This document shows positions 5,380-36,998 of a DNA stretch of 64,000 nt, one piece after another. Source of the DNA: Burkholderiales bacterium (GTDB taxonomy: Bacteria > Pseudomonadota > Gammaproteobacteria > Burkholderiales > SG8-41); assembly GCA_019744975.1 (NCBI GenBank), contig JAIETP010000004.1:124001-188000 (forward strand), given 5' to 3'. Each line of letters begins with the position of its first letter. The stretch's first letter is position 1. The position numbers were made by a program, and so were the translations under genes. The notes under the pieces are model-generated. The model did not search any database and was not told where the DNA came from. It worked only from the letters and a program-made list of their open reading frames with translations.

Positions 5380-5450
5380 CGTCATTCCGGCGAAAGCCGG
5401 AATCCAGGAATTTTTAAAACCTCTGGACCCCGGCTTTTGCCGGGGTGACG
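5380..5450. repeat. Palindromic repeat, CGTCATTCCGGC family (copy 1)
   Basis: A 71-bp element made of two imperfect inverted arms: CGTCATTCCGGCGAAAGCCG and following bases at the left, and a segment ending CCGGGGTGACG at the right. Each arm is itself palindromic. It lies in the gap between the ATPase and VWA genes. Its left 28 bases equal the left end of the GIY-YIG element at 36061. Confidence 0.85.
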
Positions 5451-7686: not shown

Positions 7687-7770
7687 TCGTGTTTCGACAA
7701 GCTCAACACGAACGGCAATAATCACTGTCGGAAATCAACTCAACCGTTCGCCCTGAGCCTGTCGAAGGGC
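7687..7770. repeat. Palindromic repeat, CCGTTCGCCCTGAGC family (copy 1)
   Basis: Two inverted arms (a TTCGACAAGCTCA-type arm and CCGTTCGCCCTGAGCCTGTC and following bases) around a short spacer, in the gap before the isomerase gene. The same family occurs at 22508-22586 and 25725-25790. Confidence 0.8.
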
Positions 7771-10738: not shown

Positions 10739-13204
10739 TCAGGCCACCGCCTGCTGTTCGTACAGATATTTCTGGAAACCGCTGAACACCTGGCCGATTT
10801 CCTCGGGTTGCCCGAGGTCAGCCACCGCATCCGCCAGAGAATCGCGGTATTTCAGCCGCAGCAGCGGCGTCAGTTTTTCCTGATCCAGCTCCTCGACACC
10901 GACACTGATGTAGTGCGACAACACGAAGTCGATGAACACCTGTTGTTTGCCATTGAAATGCGTGCTGACCACCGCCATTGCCCGGTTCGCGCGTTCCTCG
11001 CGGGTCAGCGGTGCCAGTGCATAAGCGACATGGGCCAACACATCGAACAGGTCGCTTTTCTCGGCATCAATGATTTTCTGCATCTCGGTCAGTTGCTGCC
11101 TGCCGAAGCCTTTCTCGGCCAGCCCCTCCAGCAGCTTCCGCCGCGTATCCGGTGCGCTCCACAACCGGCGCAACTCCTCCTCATCCCGGAAAAACTCCGG
11201 TAGCCTGCCGAACAGCGCTTCCATGAACTGCTGCGCCGACATCGGCGTGCCGTCCGGGTGCCAGAAACTGGTCGAGGTCATGTGCTGGATCGTGCGCGCC
11301 TTGCCATCAGCGAGTTTGACCTTCGCCTTTTTCGGCGGCACATAATCCGGCGGGGTTTGCCTCGCCTTCGGTGGCTGACGCCCGCCACCATCGGGCTTTG
11401 GTGGCTCCGGATCAATCGGCTCGCCATCCCACTCCGGATCACTGAAATGGTGATGCGCCTTCACAAAATCATAAATCGTGAAGTAGTCCTTGCCGTCATA
11501 CAGCCGTGTGCCGCGACCGATGATCTGTTTGAACTCAATCATCGAATTGATCGGCCGCAGCAGCACGATGTTGCGCACATTGCGTGCATCCACACCGGTC
11601 GACAGCTTCTGCGACGTGGTCAGAATGGTGGGGATGGTTTTTTCGTTGTCCTGAAAATCGCGCAGGAACTGCTCGCCCAGTGCGCCGTCGTTGGCCGTCA
11701 CCCGCTCGCAGTAATGCGGATCGCTGCTGGATTTCATCTGGTTGACCAGATCACGGATCGCCAGCGCATGCGCCTGGTTGGCACAGAACACCAACGTCTT
11801 TTCCCGCTGGTCGATCTGCGCCATGAAAATCTCCACCCGCTTTTTCTCGCGCTCGCGGATTTCGATGATCTTGTTGAAGTCCTTTTCCTCGTAACGCCTG
11901 CCCGCCTCGATCTCGCCCTCGACCAGCGTGTCGTCCGGCGTGTAGACGTATTCATCCATCGTCGTCGCGATCTGCTTGACGCGGAACGGCGTCAGGAAGC
12001 CGTCGTTGATGCCTTCGCGCAGCGAATACACATACACCGGATCACCGAAGTAGGCATAGGTGTCGATATTGTCGCGGCGCTTTGGCGTTGCTGTCAGCCC
12101 GAGTTGCACGGCTGGCGCGAAATAATCGAGGATGCCGCGCCAGTTGCTTTCGTCATTGGCGCCGCCACGGTGGCATTCGTCGATGACGATGAAATCAAAA
12201 AAGTCTGGTGGATACTCGCCAAAATACGGCGCTGCGGCAGCCTGCTCAGAGGGCGCGCCACTTGAGCCGTCATTCCGGCGCAAGCCGGAATCCAGTGGTT
12301 TGTCATCAGCCGAACTGGACTCCCGCTTTCCCCCCAAGGGGACTTCCTTCGGGGCGCGCGGGAGTGACGACTCTCCACCACTCATGAAGGTCTGGAATAT
12401 CGTAAAGAAAATACTCCCGTTCTTCGGCACCCGCCCCTTCTTGCGGATGTCGTCCGGCGCGATGCGCACCAGCGAACCCGGCTCAGCGTCCTCAAACGCC
12501 GAAAACGCGTTGTAAGCCTGGTCAGCGAGGATGTTGCGGTCGGCGAGGAACAGGATGCGCGGCCGGCGTTGCGGCTCAGCATCCGACTTGCGGTCCTGCA
12601 GATTCCAGCGGCTGTGATAGAGCTTCCATGCCAGTTGAAAGGCGATGAAGGTTTTGCCGGTGCCGGTGGCCAGCGTCAGCAGCACGCGGTCGCGCCCATC
12701 GGCAATCGCCGCCAGCACGCGATCTATCGCGATGTCCTGGTAATAACGGCCCTGGAAATAACCGCCCTTGTCCTCGAAGGGCACCGCGGCAAAACGGTCA
12801 CGCCAGACATTCCTGGTCGCAAACGTCCGTTTCCATAACTCATCCGGTGACGGAAACTGCGCCACCTCGGCCTCGACGCCGGTGTGCATGTCGATGGAGT
12901 AGATACCCTGGCCGTTGCTGGAATAGGTAAAACGAATTGCCAGCTTGTCCGCGTAATCCTTGGCCTGGCCCACGCCTTCGGTCAGTGGTTTGTCCCAGGC
13001 CTTGGCCTCGACCACGGCCAGCTTGGTATTGCGGTACTCCAGCACGTAATCCGCGGTCAGCGCCTTGCCGCGTTTGCCCGCGCCTTCGATGCGCCCCGGC
13101 GCGATCGGATACTCGCGCCGCACCCTGCTGCCGTCGACCACGCCCCAGCCCGCCGCCTTGAGGGCGGGGTCGATATGTTCGGCGCGGGTTTCGGCTTCGT
13201 TCAT
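10739..13204 (-). CDS. hsdR: Type I restriction enzyme, R (helicase-nuclease) subunit
   Basis: An 821-residue motor and nuclease subunit of a type I restriction-modification complex. The N-terminal PD-(D/E)xK nuclease has Asp52, Glu66 and Lys68 (VVEAKAW). Walker A is ATGTGKT (179-185) and the DEAD-box motif is DECH (342-345); helicase domain 2 and a C-terminal subunit-contact region follow. It translocates DNA and cuts unmodified DNA with HsdM and HsdS. Residues about 279-313 are encoded by an in-frame palindromic repeat between helicase motifs, so this loop is not ancestral. Last gene of the hsdM-hsdS-MNT-HEPN-hsdR cluster. Confidence 0.93.
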   Translation of the reverse strand: MNEAETRAEHIDPALKAAGWGVVDGSRVRREYPIAPGRIEGAGKRGKALTADYVLEYRNTKLAVVEAKAWDKPLTEGVGQAKDYADKLAIRFTYSSNGQGIYSIDMHTGVEAEVAQFPSPDELWKRTFATRNVWRDRFAAVPFEDKGGYFQGRYYQDIAIDRVLAAIADGRDRVLLTLATGTGKTFIAFQLAWKLYHSRWNLQDRKSDAEPQRRPRILFLADRNILADQAYNAFSAFEDAEPGSLVRIAPDDIRKKGRVPKNGSIFFTIFQTFMSGGESSLPRAPKEVPLGGKRESSSADDKPLDSGLRRNDGSSGAPSEQAAAAPYFGEYPPDFFDFIVIDECHRGGANDESNWRGILDYFAPAVQLGLTATPKRRDNIDTYAYFGDPVYVYSLREGINDGFLTPFRVKQIATTMDEYVYTPDDTLVEGEIEAGRRYEEKDFNKIIEIREREKKRVEIFMAQIDQREKTLVFCANQAHALAIRDLVNQMKSSSDPHYCERVTANDGALGEQFLRDFQDNEKTIPTILTTSQKLSTGVDARNVRNIVLLRPINSMIEFKQIIGRGTRLYDGKDYFTIYDFVKAHHHFSDPEWDGEPIDPEPPKPDGGGRQPPKARQTPPDYVPPKKAKVKLADGKARTIQHMTSTSFWHPDGTPMSAQQFMEALFGRLPEFFRDEEELRRLWSAPDTRRKLLEGLAEKGFGRQQLTEMQKIIDAEKSDLFDVLAHVAYALAPLTREERANRAMAVVSTHFNGKQQVFIDFVLSHYISVGVEELDQEKLTPLLRLKYRDSLADAVADLGQPEEIGQVFSGFQKYLYEQQAVA
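12268..12369. repeat. Palindromic repeat inside hsdR, CGTCATTCCGGC family (copy 2)
   Basis: A 102-bp element starting CGTCATTCCGGC and ending GGAGTGACG, lying in frame within hsdR. Its core at 12330-12359 is identical over 30 bases to 21341-21370 in another copy. It encodes an insert containing LDSGLRRNDG. Confidence 0.85.
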
Positions 13205-21276: not shown

Positions 21277-21390
21277 CGTCATTCCGGCGAAAGCCGGAAT
21301 CCAGCGTCCTTGTCTGGCTCACTTCCTGGTTTCCGGCTCGCCCCCCAAGGGGACTTCCTTCGGGGCGCGCTACGCGCGTCCGGAATGACG
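21277..21390. repeat. Palindromic repeat, CGTCATTCCGGC family (copy 4)
   Basis: A 114-bp element with perfect outer arms (CGTCATTCCGG / CCGGAATGACG). Its core 21341-21370 is identical over 30 bases to the core of the copy inside hsdR. It lies between the MmgE/PrpD gene and the reductase gene. Confidence 0.87.
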
Positions 21391-22485: not shown

Positions 22486-23553
22486 ATGAACAAAAAATTC
22501 ATAAACACCGTTCGGGCTGAGTCCTTCGACAGGCTCAGGACAGGCCTTGTCGAAGCCCTGCCCTTCGACAGGCTCAGGGCGAACGGTATGCGTTCGTTTA
22601 TAAAAAAATCAGTAATTGCCTTGGCTTGCCTGACCGCCTGCTCCGCCGGCGCCGCCACCTTCCCCGAGCGCCCGGTGCGCATGCTCGCGGCTTCCGCGGC
22701 GGGCGGTGGCACCGACATCATCGCCCGGCTGCTCGCCCAGCAGCTGACCACGGTCTGGGCGCAGCAGGTCATTGTCGACAACCGCCCCGGTGGTGGTGGC
22801 GTGATCGCCACCGACATCGCCGCCAAGGCCGTGCCCGACGGTTACACGCTGCTGCTGCAAAGCGTGGGCATTTCCTATGCGCCGGCACTGTACAAAAACC
22901 TGCCCTTCGACGTGAAGCGCGACATCATGGCGGTGACCATCGTCGGCAGCCAGCCCTTCGTGCTCGCCGTGCATCCTTCGGTACCGGCGAAATCCGTCGC
23001 CGAACTGGTGCAGCTCGCCAAAACCAAACCCGGTGAAATCCGTTTTGCATCGGGCGGCGTCAGCGGCGCCTCCCACCTCGGCTCGGAACTGTTCCGTGTT
23101 ACCGCCGGCGTGAACATGGTGCATGTGCCGTACAAGGGCACGGGCCCCGGCACCACCGCCCTGCTCACCGGCGAGGTGCACATGGTGATTGCCGGCGTCG
23201 GCACGATATTGCCGCATGCAAAAAGCGGCAAGGTGCGCGCGCTGGCGGTCACCGGCGCCAAACGCAGTCCGGCAGCACCGGAACTGCCGACGATCGCCGA
23301 AAACGGCCTGCCCGGTTATGCTTTCGATGTCTGGTACGGTGTGTTTGCGTCGGCGAAAACACCGCGCACGACGCTGAATAAAATCAGTACCGATGCCAAT
23401 ACAGTGCTGCGCGACGCGGAAACCATCAAACGTTTTGCCGGCGCCGGTGTCGATCTGATCGGCGGCAGCGTTGATGAATCCAATAAATACCTGCAGACGG
23501 AAATGACCAAGTGGGCCAAAGTCATCCGCGAAGCAGGCATCAAGGCGGACTGA
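22486..23553 (+). CDS. Bug/TctC-family receptor 3, leader interrupted by an in-frame repeat
   Basis: A 355-residue periplasmic receptor. The body from ATFPERPVRML onward is standard Bug. The start at 22486 has an excellent GGAGGAG site, but residues about 8-34 are encoded by a palindromic repeat (22508-22586). The hydrophobic signal segment follows only at residue 39 (KKSVIALACLTACSAGA). The repeat thus seems inserted into the signal-peptide codons while preserving frame. Export would need either tolerance of a long positively charged n-region or re-initiation at the ATG at 22588, which lacks a ribosome site of its own. Third of three genes after MmgE/PrpD. Confidence 0.85.
   Translation: MNKKFINTVRAESFDRLRTGLVEALPFDRLRANGMRSFIKKSVIALACLTACSAGAATFPERPVRMLAASAAGGGTDIIARLLAQQLTTVWAQQVIVDNRPGGGGVIATDIAAKAVPDGYTLLLQSVGISYAPALYKNLPFDVKRDIMAVTIVGSQPFVLAVHPSVPAKSVAELVQLAKTKPGEIRFASGGVSGASHLGSELFRVTAGVNMVHVPYKGTGPGTTALLTGEVHMVIAGVGTILPHAKSGKVRALAVTGAKRSPAAPELPTIAENGLPGYAFDVWYGVFASAKTPRTTLNKISTDANTVLRDAETIKRFAGAGVDLIGGSVDESNKYLQTEMTKWAKVIREAGIKAD
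22508..22586. repeat. Palindromic repeat inside a receptor leader, CCGTTCGCCCTGAGC family (copy 2)
   Basis: A 79-bp element beginning CCGTTCGGGCTGAG and ending CAGGGCGAACGG, containing three TTCGACAGG/TTGTCGAAG-type boxes. It lies in frame between the ribosome site/start codon and the signal-peptide core of a Bug receptor gene. Confidence 0.85.
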
Positions 23554-25724: not shown

Positions 25725-25790
25725 CCGTTCGCCCTGAGCTTGTCGAAGGGCGCCATTACAAGCGGGCTTCGACAAGCTCAGCCCGAACGG
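25725..25790. repeat. Palindromic repeat, CCGTTCGCCCTGAGC family (copy 3)
   Basis: A 66-bp near-perfect inverted repeat: CCGTTCGCCCTGAGCTTGTC... at the left and ...GACAAGCTCAGCCCGAACGG at the right. It lies between the PH-domain and DoxX genes. Confidence 0.87.
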
Positions 25791-34759: not shown

Positions 34760-36040
34760 ATGTCCTCACCCACCCCCCCGTTGACCGCAGTGGAAAAAGT
34801 GCTGGCCGCCAAAAGCGGACGAAGCACCGTGAAGCCGGGGGATGTGGTCTCCCCCGACCCCGACTTCATCATGATCCATGACGGCGTGGTGATGGGCGCC
34901 AAACGCGAACTCGATGCTCTTGGCATCAATCGCCTGGCGACGCCGGACAAGGTGATGATGGTCACCGATCACGATGTGATCTACGGTAGCCCCCGCGCAG
35001 CCGAACGCGGTGCGTTCAACCGCAAGGCCGCGGCGCAATGGCGCGTGAAAAATTTCTTCGACGTCGGCCGCGGCGGCCACGGCCATATTTTCCCGATGGA
35101 AAGCGGCCTGCTGCTGCCGGGCATGTTTTATTTCGACAACGATCGCCATGCCACCAACGCCGGCGCCATCGGCGCTTTCGGTTTTCGCATGGGCAGCGAG
35201 ATTTCCCGTGTGCTGGCCACCGGCACCAACTGGGTCATGGTGCCGAAAACCGTGCGACTGACGCTGAAGGGACAACTGAAACCGGGCGTACATGCGCGCG
35301 ATGTCGGTTTCCATTTCGCCGCCCTGCTGAAACAGGGAAAACTCACGGCAGATCTTGATTACCGTGTACTCGAATACGCCGGCGACCTCGATCAATTCGA
35401 CCTGGCGTCACGCGCGGCATTGTGTTCCACGCCAACAGAAATTCGCGCTTATGGTGTGTTCGTGCCGCCGTCAAAGGCAATTCTCGAATTCGCCAGATCC
35501 CGTGCACAGCGTCCGTTCACGGCCGTGTATTCCGATGCCGATGCGCGTTACGACGCCGACCTCACTCTCGATATTTCAGCTCTTGAGCCGCAAGTCTCTC
35601 TGCCGGGCAGCGTCGACAACGCAGTCGACGTGTCCGAAGTCGAAGGCACCGCCATCGACCACGCCTTCATCGGCTCCTGCGGCTCCGGCATGTGGGAAGA
35701 CATGACGGCCGCCGCGGCAATACTCAAGGGGCGCCGCCTGGCACCGAATGTGCGGCTGTTCATCGCCCCCGGCACCGAGGCCACCAACCGCCGTCTGGCG
35801 ACAGAAGGTCTGCTCAGCATCTTCATCGAAGCCGGCGCGGTGATGCTGCCGCCGGGCTGTGGCCCCTGCAACGATGCCGTGATCGGGCCGGTGCATAGCG
35901 GTGAAGTTTCGATTTCGACCGCGACCAACAACAACGCGGGGCGTTTTGGCGCCAAGGACGCAAAACTCTATCTCGGCAGCCCGGCGACGGTGGCGGCATC
36001 CGCAGTGGCGGGTAAAATCGCCGATGCACGCAAGTTGTGA
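34760..36040 (+). CDS. Aconitase-superfamily dehydratase, large subunit (LeuC/homoaconitase-like)
   Basis: A 426-residue [4Fe-4S] dehydratase subunit. The opening VEKVLAAKSG and cluster Cys residues are visible (SCGSGMWEDM and PPGCGPCND). The normally conserved DSHT substrate segment reads FDNDRHATNAGAIGAFG, so the active site differs from isopropylmalate isomerase and leucine synthesis is unlikely. The matching small (swivel) subunit is 420 bp downstream at 36462, separated by a GIY-YIG element. A hydro-lyase for another hydroxyacid is inferred. Confidence 0.85.
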   Translation: MSSPTPPLTAVEKVLAAKSGRSTVKPGDVVSPDPDFIMIHDGVVMGAKRELDALGINRLATPDKVMMVTDHDVIYGSPRAAERGAFNRKAAAQWRVKNFFDVGRGGHGHIFPMESGLLLPGMFYFDNDRHATNAGAIGAFGFRMGSEISRVLATGTNWVMVPKTVRLTLKGQLKPGVHARDVGFHFAALLKQGKLTADLDYRVLEYAGDLDQFDLASRAALCSTPTEIRAYGVFVPPSKAILEFARSRAQRPFTAVYSDADARYDADLTLDISALEPQVSLPGSVDNAVDVSEVEGTAIDHAFIGSCGSGMWEDMTAAAAILKGRRLAPNVRLFIAPGTEATNRRLATEGLLSIFIEAGAVMLPPGCGPCNDAVIGPVHSGEVSISTATNNNAGRFGAKDAKLYLGSPATVAASAVAGKIADARKL

Positions 36041-36060: not shown

Positions 36061-36426
36061 CGTCATTCCGGCGAAAGCCGGAATCCAGGCCGTGAAGCAT
36101 CCTTGTGTATATCTGCTCGCAAGCCGCAGAAATGGTACTTTGTACATCGGCGTGACATCGGATATCGTCAAACGCATCTGGGAGCACAAAAATGATGCAG
36201 TCGAAGGTTTCACCAAGCGTTACGGTGTGCACATCCTGGTTTGGTGTGAGGCGCACGAAACCATGGAATCAGCCATTACACGTGAAAAAACCATCAAGGG
36301 CTGGAAACGCAGATGGAAACTGGAACTGATTGAGAAGGAAAATCCACAATGGATCGACCTCTACGACAGCATGACTTGACTACTTTTTCACGTGTTTACT
36401 GGATTCCGGCTTACGCCGGAATGACG
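36061..36426. mobile_element. 366-bp element with 28-bp terminal inverted repeats carrying a GIY-YIG nuclease gene
   Basis: The left end 36061-36088 and right end 36399-36426 are inverted copies differing at about one of 28 positions, and belong to the CGTCATTCCGGC palindromic family seen elsewhere as short elements. A 95-codon GIY-YIG gene fills nearly all the space between them. The element separates the large and small subunit genes of one dehydratase, as expected for an insertion. No target-site duplication is obvious. Confidence 0.75.
36092..36379 (+). CDS. GIY-YIG endonuclease domain protein (COG2827-like)
   Basis: A 95-residue single-domain nuclease: VYLLASRRNGTLYIGVTS (6-23) gives the two-strand GIY-YIG core with Tyr7 and Tyr18-Ile-Gly. 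Arg28 and His32 follow on the helix (KRIWEHK), then a TREKTIKGWKR segment with the putative catalytic Glu65 and a NPQWIDL end. It uses GTG as start, three bases after the left terminal repeat. GIY-YIG domains make nicks or breaks in DNA, as in UvrC and homing endonucleases; small free-standing members are uncharacterised. Its position inside terminal repeats suggests a role in spreading or maintaining the repeats. Confidence 0.88.
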   Translation: MKHPCVYLLASRRNGTLYIGVTSDIVKRIWEHKNDAVEGFTKRYGVHILVWCEAHETMESAITREKTIKGWKRRWKLELIEKENPQWIDLYDSMT

Positions 36427-36461: not shown

Positions 36462-36998
36462 ATGAGTGAATTTGCCTGGGTACTCAAAGGCCGCTGCTAC
36501 AAACTCGGCCATGACGTCTGGCATGCCGGCGGCGTGGTGCCGAACTGGCTCATCACCGGTCGCCACTTCGATGCCAAGGACATCATTCCGCATCTCTTTG
36601 AGGAAACCGACCCCGGCTTCCACACCCGCTGCAAGCCCGGTGACATCATCGTCACCGGCCGCAATTTCGGCATGGGTCCGAAAATGAACGGTTATATCGC
36701 AATGCAGGCACTGGGCCTGGGGCTGGTCTGCGAATCGATGCCTTTCCTCGCCTACCGCGCGGCGATCGGCTGCGGCGTGCGGGTGATGACCGACTGCATC
36801 AATGTCACCGAGATGTGTGAAACTGGGGATGAACTTGAAGTCAATTTCCGCGACGGTTTTTTCATCAATCACACGCGCGACTTCCGCCGCGAATATCCGC
36901 CGATTCCCGACACGCTGATGGAAATCGTCGAACTTGGCGGCAATGCGGGATGGCTGCAGCAGTGGCAGGCCAAACGCGGCGCTGCAGCGGCCCCATGA
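36462..36998 (+). CDS. Aconitase-superfamily dehydratase, small (swivel) subunit (LeuD-like)
   Basis: A 178-residue swivelling domain subunit. The segment LITGRHFDAKDIIPHLFEETDPGF aligns with the LeuD start. IIVTGRNFGMGPKMN corresponds to the usual GxNFGxGSSREH, but the Ser-Ser-Arg-Glu loop is altered here (GPKMN), matching the altered large subunit. It lacks a ribosome site, consistent with loss of coupling to the large subunit gene after insertion of the GIY-YIG element. The stop overlaps the next gene (ATGA). Confidence 0.85.
   Translation: MSEFAWVLKGRCYKLGHDVWHAGGVVPNWLITGRHFDAKDIIPHLFEETDPGFHTRCKPGDIIVTGRNFGMGPKMNGYIAMQALGLGLVCESMPFLAYRAAIGCGVRVMTDCINVTEMCETGDELEVNFRDGFFINHTRDFRREYPPIPDTLMEIVELGGNAGWLQQWQAKRGAAAAP

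Follow-up and report, generated by a model that had tools for sequence, protein, structure and literature searches.

REPtrons, the REP-RAYT systems with their REPINs, are the closest described counterparts of the locus reported here. According to the available portions of PMC3733652 and PMC3116915, tagged palindromes (GTAG-REPs) surround one gene, gene-less inverted pairs of them are dispersed, and several enzyme and REP types exist, each enzyme matched to its REP; the available text of PMC3116915 describes RAYTs as single-copy. As far as the accessible sections of Di Nocera et al. 2013 (PMC3733652) tell, the CGTC-REPs are known from five phyla, include the Neisseria dRS3 and the Rickettsia RPE-6/RPE-4 families and 'apparently lack[s] a dedicated transposase'. 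In the same sections no enzyme gene is found flanked by CGTC units and the mode of spread is posed as an open question; 'GIY' is absent from the main text of PMC3733652.

The unit compared here with these systems spans 366 bp (36061-36426) of a 64,000-nucleotide stretch of DNA from a Burkholderiales bacterium, which we call the window. It consists of a REP, a GIY-YIG nuclease gene and an inverted REP, and is flanked by two dehydratase subunit genes. With the CGTC-REP families, as the accessible sections of PMC3733652 present them, the window repeats share tag, stem, loop and tail, but here an enzyme gene lies between the CGTC units. All three REPtron traits named above are present as well. The enzyme, however, is a GIY-YIG nuclease and not an HUH/Y1 tyrosine transposase, the tag reads CGTC and not GTAG, and the nuclease, unlike the single-copy RAYTs, occurs in up to six copies per genome. 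The Y1/HUH tyrosine transposase that defines a REPtron is not found between these REPs, the window protein matching PF01541 only. Since its working would be REPtron-like but without a Y1 enzyme, we regard the unit as a variant of REP systems and not as a RAYT system.

Free-standing GIY-YIG homing endonucleases, such as I-TevI and the Seg type, belong to the same superfamily and share the selfish-looking distribution of the window nuclease; unlike at their loci, no intron or intein was seen, multicopy palindromes flank the gene in place of one cognate site, and the 95-aa model has a single domain. The solved folds nearest to that model are the GIY-YIG domains of UPF0213 proteins, UvrC and Slx1 (1zg2, 1yd6, 7cq3; structure comparison and sequence profile), yet none of eight small genes that look UPF0213-like is REP-flanked, and the window nuclease is smaller than UvrC or Slx1. 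MITEs and IS elements have inverted ends and gene-less derivatives, as the window element does. Unlike them, it has no DDE or HUH transposase inside, its ends are themselves palindromes, and no target duplication was seen.

Structure of the element and dispersed repeats of the same type

The terminal arms of the element, 28 nt each, are 96% complementary at a spacing of 310 nt. The left arm (36061-36088, forward strand) is a CGTC-REP by its sequence and the published class definition (PMC3733652, section 6), with a CGTC tag, a ATTCCGGC/GCCGGAAT stem, a GAAA loop and an inward CCAG tail; the right arm (36399-36426, reverse strand), identified by arm alignment and pattern search, is an inverted CGTC-REP with its tag outwards. 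Between them runs the subfamily-A nuclease gene (36092-36379, forward strand), with 95 codons, a GTG start and a TGA stop, assigned from its PF01541 match, alignment and model. The ORF begins 3 nt past the left arm; its GTG start is predicted and unproven, because the frame stays open through the left REP (107 codons). The host genes on either side, both on the forward strand, encode an aconitase/IPMI-type dehydratase large subunit (34760-36040) and a LeuD/DmdB-type dehydratase small subunit (36462-36998), assignments that are profile matches under the curated cut-offs of those NCBIfam models. No ribosome site was seen by eye ahead of the small-subunit gene (36462). A first-pass annotation of the window had described a 95-codon GIY-YIG gene starting three bases inside inverted 28-bp ends and lying between the two dehydratase subunit genes, and this anatomy was recovered in full, with the start codon a predicted one.

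The window protein matches PF01541 (GIY-YIG) at 5.4e-16 and no other Pfam family. Residues Y7, Y18, G20, R28, H32, E65 and N84 are invariant in all 23 aligned sequences (the window and 22 relatives). The fold and the conserved Tyr, Arg, His, Glu and Asn of the GIY-YIG superfamily are present, and we take these residues to have the catalytic roles of their counterparts in the fold. The AlphaFold2 model of the 95-aa protein is a single compact domain (mean pLDDT 96). A PHROGs search at E 0.001 returned a single match, a homing endonuclease family (5.9e-5). Against four relatives the window nuclease shows dS of about 0.63-2.6, dN of 0.04-0.13 and dN/dS of 0.05-0.08; dN/dS is about 0.07 for the pairs L181/L187 and L114/L129 discussed below, and about 0.23 for L040/L043, which differ by very few changes. 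The protein is under strong purifying selection.

The window repeats agree with CGTC-1 as defined in the accessible sections of PMC3733652: CGTC at one end, an 8-bp stem starting with AT, a 4-nt loop and a CCA tail. A pattern with a perfect 8-bp stem occurs at 13 places in the bacterium's own 3.69-Mb genome, the reversed pattern at 0. A strict detector places 7 of the 11 perfect-stem copies outside the element in head-to-head pairs; repeats that are multicopy and mainly head-to-head dimers, a CGTC-1 trait, are thus found in this genome. Inverted REP pairs are also dispersed as units, in the manner of REPINs: the sequence at 5380-5450 (forward strand) reads as a REP, about 15 nt and an inverted REP, with ends of the element's type and no gene, and there are others. 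Two CGTC-REPs found by pattern search at 12268-12295 and 21277-21304 (both forward strand) are partnerless by the strict detector, with partners that look degenerate by eye. Repeats at 5380, 12268 and 21277 had already been likened to the element's ends, and a pattern search of the own genome returned them. At window positions of about 12272 and 21281 (L021, L022), a repeat, CCCCCCAAGGGGACTTCCTTCGGGG, appears to replace or interrupt the second half of the REP pair. In another genome, G485, we counted by eye 15 head-to-head pairs of another REP type among 50 listed copies of 57, and two more pairs, 362 and 369 bp apart, that each enclose a nuclease gene.

Repeat flanks of the nuclease in other genomes

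Relatives were collected on protein similarity alone. Named genomes and MAGs gave 39 loci; of 398 Pseudomonadota genomes, 103 had matches, a patchy distribution with at most six subfamily-A copies per genome. The phylum-sample loci comprise 30 that came with the search and 80 stretches fetched from further listed matches. Matches with a profile start beyond 15 or a short flank were dropped, which reduced 157 HMM matches to 146 scorable genes, 142 of them unique. For each gene, the 200 bp upstream were locally aligned to the reverse complement of the 200 bp downstream, with a threshold score of >=16. Inverted flanking repeats were found at 96/146 nuclease genes versus 3/1450 same-size control intervals from the same loci. 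After deduplication 94/142 genes were flanked, 78/109 in the phylum sample (window included) and 16/33 among the named records; at least one flanked gene occurs in 24 of the 31 taxonomic families of the phylum sample. By their labels, the records in which the association recurs span many phyla; MAGs labelled Dehalococcoidia, Aminicenantes, Nitrospira, Nitrospinota, Phycisphaerae and Paceibacterota are among the named ones with flanks. The repeats are mostly GTCAT...ATCCA hairpins with many different stems. The flank score was below 16 at 48/142 genes, some of which plainly have imperfect REPs and others nothing. CGTC tags point outward on both sides at 53/142 loci and inward on both sides at 11/142, and by the tag-orientation detector neither side has a REP at 26/142.

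Among 31 viral loci from IMG/VR, 26 were scored after removal of 4 short ones and 1 duplicate; 22/26 nuclease genes were flanked versus 0/260 intervals, several of the contigs being closely related to each other. Since these contigs mostly show the same REP flanks, they are likely host or provirus DNA. Phage cargo was set aside as an explanation on these grounds and because a protein search of a phage collection gave no match; chance pairing of repeats is ruled out by the control intervals (3/1450, 0/260 and, for subfamily B below, 0/300). The first-pass annotation had hinged on whether genes of this family are flanked more often than chance allows and whether homologues elsewhere stand apart from the repeats. 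Flanking exceeds chance in both sets, and the homologues elsewhere show the REP association.

A plasmid collection yielded 33 matching records. Of 10 examined by eye, 8 show a REP-like palindrome at either side of the gene, and these include Neisseria gonorrhoeae, Sinorhizobium meliloti (tag CCTC), Rhizobium, Shinella, Aeromonas and Planktothrix; two records of the Rhizobium tumorigenes group have a palindrome downstream only. The Planktothrix plasmid copy (L208) has an MmeI-type restriction gene on one side and DISARM drmA on the other. In three groups named in the accessible sections of PMC3733652, Neisseria, Sinorhizobium meliloti and Azospirillum lipoferum, the nuclease gene is bracketed by REPs (by eye). 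Sequence outside the REP-nuclease-REP unit resembles inverted ends in MAGs of Nitrospira type and Aminicenantes (L039, L040, L043, L059, L060, L062), GGTTCATCTCC..GTTGCAA upstream where seen and TTGCAACTA..TGGGAGA.GA.CC downstream, which may point to a larger composite element. In Bacteroidia (L065, L066), relatives of the nuclease adjoin apparent tRNA 3' ends, and the palindrome CATCCCGACTTxACGTCGGGAGGGTCG is repeated there.

Another small GIY-YIG gene of the own genome (C16:64463-64738, L009/L279), of a second subfamily (B), is flanked by a CCGTTCGCCCTGAGCCTGTCGAAGGGC-type palindrome. The core of this second repeat class, CCTGAGCCTGTCGAAGG, the class that flanks subfamily B, occurs at 40 places in the genome. 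A core search placed it in the window at 7752-7768 (C4:131752) and 25733-25749 (C4:149733) on the forward strand, and twice in close succession on the reverse strand at 22523-22578 (C4:146523, 146562). Subfamily B is present in 26/398 genomes; 35 matches were listed, and scoring covered the 30 of them available as loci. In the alignment test, 24/30 of its genes have inverted flanking repeats versus 0/300 intervals. Hairpins with CGTC lie near 102/142 A genes (background 53/705) and 0/30 B genes (background 11/150), and TGAG..TCGA hairpins near 27/30 B genes (background 18/150) and 3/142 A genes (background 23/705). Within the 16 genomes that have both subfamilies, A genes are near CGTC hairpins in 13/25 cases and TGAG..TCGA hairpins in 1/25, B genes in 0/20 and 18/20. 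The hairpin motif for the second class is a third version, defined after earlier ones had been seen (a looser first one matched 247/705 background windows), so that the alignment test is the cleaner evidence for subfamily B. Other small GIY-YIG genes, which we take to be UPF0213-like, were drawn from genomes with CCCGC-type REPs, and 0/8 of those scored (8 of 10) have REP flanks.

The type of REP at nuclease flanks varies between genomes and tends to match the type dispersed elsewhere in the same genome. CCCGC-type (ATTCCCGC-type) REPs, nuclease-flank copies subtracted, occur in 12/14 genomes with that flank versus 11/59 others, and ACTTG-loop-type REPs in 9/10 versus 3/64, or 7/7 versus 2/6 inside one family; these tests ignore kinship between genomes. 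Over the 398 genomes, REP presence and nuclease presence are only moderately associated (odds ratio 3.5, p 1.4e-5). The subfamily-A gene is missing at E 1e-15 from 32/63 genomes carrying CCCGC-type REPs. A PF01541 search of the 20 REP-richest of these 32 gave matches in 19, and the scored ones have no REP flanks; G235 (69 REPs, 99% complete) and G520 (21 REPs) have a single PF01541 match each, of UvrC size. Loss after amplification, homing on REPs spread by other means, or another enzyme could explain such genomes.

Y1 transposases show a different pattern. A Y1 match is absent in 25/50 nuclease-bearing genomes, and CGTC ends were seen at 0/33 Y1 loci, where the inverted repeat scoring best up to 450 bp from the Pfam match was judged by eye, partial and duplicate loci included. 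The own genome has four Y1 matches; GTAG-type ends were seen by eye at two of its Y1 loci (L015, L016) and at L238, L239 and L243. Several Y1 genes lacking GTAG-REPs (L226-L235, L245, L246) have GGGGTCAGA-type inverted ends. The proposal of the first-pass annotation that the mechanism differs from that of RAYTs is upheld as far as the separateness of the REP-GIY-YIG association is concerned.

Signs of mobility and the history of the dehydratase site

One unit with defined ends is found at unrelated sites, as expected of a transposable element. In two species of one genus (L181, L187) the same element has 447 identical positions over 511-513 bases, or 87% identity from REP to REP. The flanks are unrelated, and homology ends at CTTCGTC and GACGAAG, the outer ends of the REPs. 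The pair L114/L129 repeats this pattern with boundaries to within a few bases; those of L169/L180 and L183/L185 are less clean. In Azospirillum lipoferum sufB and sufC are separated by the nuclease gene, which has an inverted REP pair at either side, and this element is missing from the three relatives examined. On Sphingobium plasmids, REP-gene-REP is present in four of the strains examined, in one of them with the gene interrupted by a one-base gap. Two others (L212, L213) have at the same site a single palindrome with the CGTC tag at both ends, as expected if a REP pair had collapsed, rather than of an unfilled single REP; in L212 each half of this palindrome corresponds to the outer half of one REP. 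Of the remaining strains, one shows another repeat, and the other has a different hairpin (ATTCCAGC..GCTGGAAT) and no nuclease. Next to the junctions, the Azospirillum and Sphingobium empty sites have diverged too far to show exact insertion points; neither a target-site duplication nor a new insertion was seen.

The copy in the window has a longer history. In 13 junctions the large- and small-subunit genes are 6-137 bp apart; three relatives from the order (L074, L081, L084) have about 1 kb of other sequence between them and no GIY-YIG gene. Adjacency of the two genes, which the first-pass annotation had called normal, is thus not universal. The site is occupied in 4 other distinct loci (L030, L031, L032 and L033, whose sequence L071 repeats). 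It is empty in the same-genus genome G169 (L070, 19-bp spacer) and the same-family genome G131 (L072, 33 bp), and hence the gene is not conserved at this site in all relatives. In a tree of both dehydratase subunits, L070 groups with L031 (0.86), inside the occupied clade. Because of this nesting its empty site is more likely a loss, and probably is one; judged from these trees, the simplest history would be one old gain and one loss, with the window-site element old and mostly inherited. The nuclease tree joins L030 with L031 (0.77) and the dehydratase tree L030 with the window (0.98), the nuclease being too short to decide. A recent insertion at this site is rejected, given the other occupied loci and the nested L070, and the first-pass picture of an element splitting an operon is not supported in the sense of a recent interruption.

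A proposed mechanism and its alternatives

We propose that the 366-bp unit is probably a REP-based mobile element in its nuclease-bearing form, the REP pairs being its gene-less derivatives. Its ends would be the two inverted CGTC-tagged palindromes, tags outward, and its sole gene that of the small GIY-YIG endonuclease. The enzyme would most likely recognise the folded REP, as hairpin or cruciform, through the CGTC tag and the CCA tail, and would nick or cut there. The covalent tyrosine link used by Y1 transposases is not known from GIY-YIG enzymes, and joining would therefore probably be left to host repair, with the REP-bounded segment copied to a new place or into another REP. The dispersed REPINs would consist of these ends alone, lacking the gene and mobilised in trans. 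We infer that the enzyme cuts REPs and that cutting causes their spread; so far, the GIY-YIG nuclease is the best candidate for a mover of CGTC-REPs. Of the earlier suggestion that the short palindromes are non-autonomous derivatives of a GIY-YIG element, one part stands: the REPs belong with the gene and the pairs share its ends (7/11 copies here, 15 pairs in G485). The other part, that the nuclease would move the REPs, belongs to the proposed model.

The nuclease might instead be a homing parasite, cutting REPs and REPINs that something else has spread and letting repair copy the REP-flanked allele into the break, so that it spreads itself only. REP-rich genomes without the gene, the matching of REP types and the palindrome that two Sphingobium strains have at the orthologous site would all follow, and the sole PHROGs match is a homing endonuclease family. 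We nevertheless consider this rather unlikely: it leaves CGTC-REPs without a known spreading enzyme, as half of the 50 searched genomes have no Y1 match and none of the 33 Y1 loci has CGTC ends, and the Sphingobium palindrome, tagged at both ends, fits pair collapse and not an unfilled single REP. Empty sites, together with differing sites in related species and homology bounded by the element, speak against a host-function nuclease, a structure-specific Slx1/UvrC-like enzyme that would process REP cruciforms or act on mRNA ends, the REPs being its sites, with no mobility. Its patchy presence (103/398 genomes) in up to six copies fits such a role poorly as well, and we hold it improbable, although strong purifying selection, the nearness of the model to UPF0213, Slx1 and UvrC among solved structures and inheritance at the dehydratase site are in its favour.

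An indirect association, in which REPs and small mobile genes gather in tolerant intergenic DNA or another transposase moves both, can point to CGTC hairpins not being rare nearby (53/705 background windows). With flanking far above background, a preferred orientation, subfamily-specific repeats and 0/8 flanks at the other small GIY-YIG genes from CCCGC-type REP genomes, it is very improbable. A RAYT acting in trans, with the GIY-YIG gene as cargo of a Y1 transposase that moves the REPs, has in its favour the four Y1 matches of the own genome; two of the Y1 loci there (L015, L016) have GTAG-type ends, half of the searched nuclease-bearing genomes have no Y1 match and 0/33 Y1 loci have CGTC ends, and we give this explanation hardly any credence.

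A link between a GIY-YIG gene and REPs was found in none of the titles and abstract openings of the matches listed in a literature search, outside which bioRxiv preprints and most subscription papers fall, nor did any paper within the same scope pair GIY-YIG with 'repetitive extragenic palindromic', dRS3 or a Neisseria mosaic term; the available portions of PMC3116915 and PMC12306157 do not mention it. Beyond the window, the balance is even as to whether the mobile element proposed here represents a class of mobile DNA widespread in bacteria, with a minimal GIY-YIG nuclease as its only enzyme. That enzyme would act on tagged palindromes, in two or more enzyme/palindrome specificities (CGTC..CCA and TGAG..TCGA). 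Such a class would be the missing engine of the CGTC-REPs, Neisseria dRS3 included, and of a second dispersed palindrome class, by a chemistry unrelated to that of RAYTs. A specific enzyme candidate turns the question of how CGTC-REPs spread into a cleavage assay. If the proposal is true, REP/REPIN systems have had two or more origins, each with an enzyme unrelated to the other.
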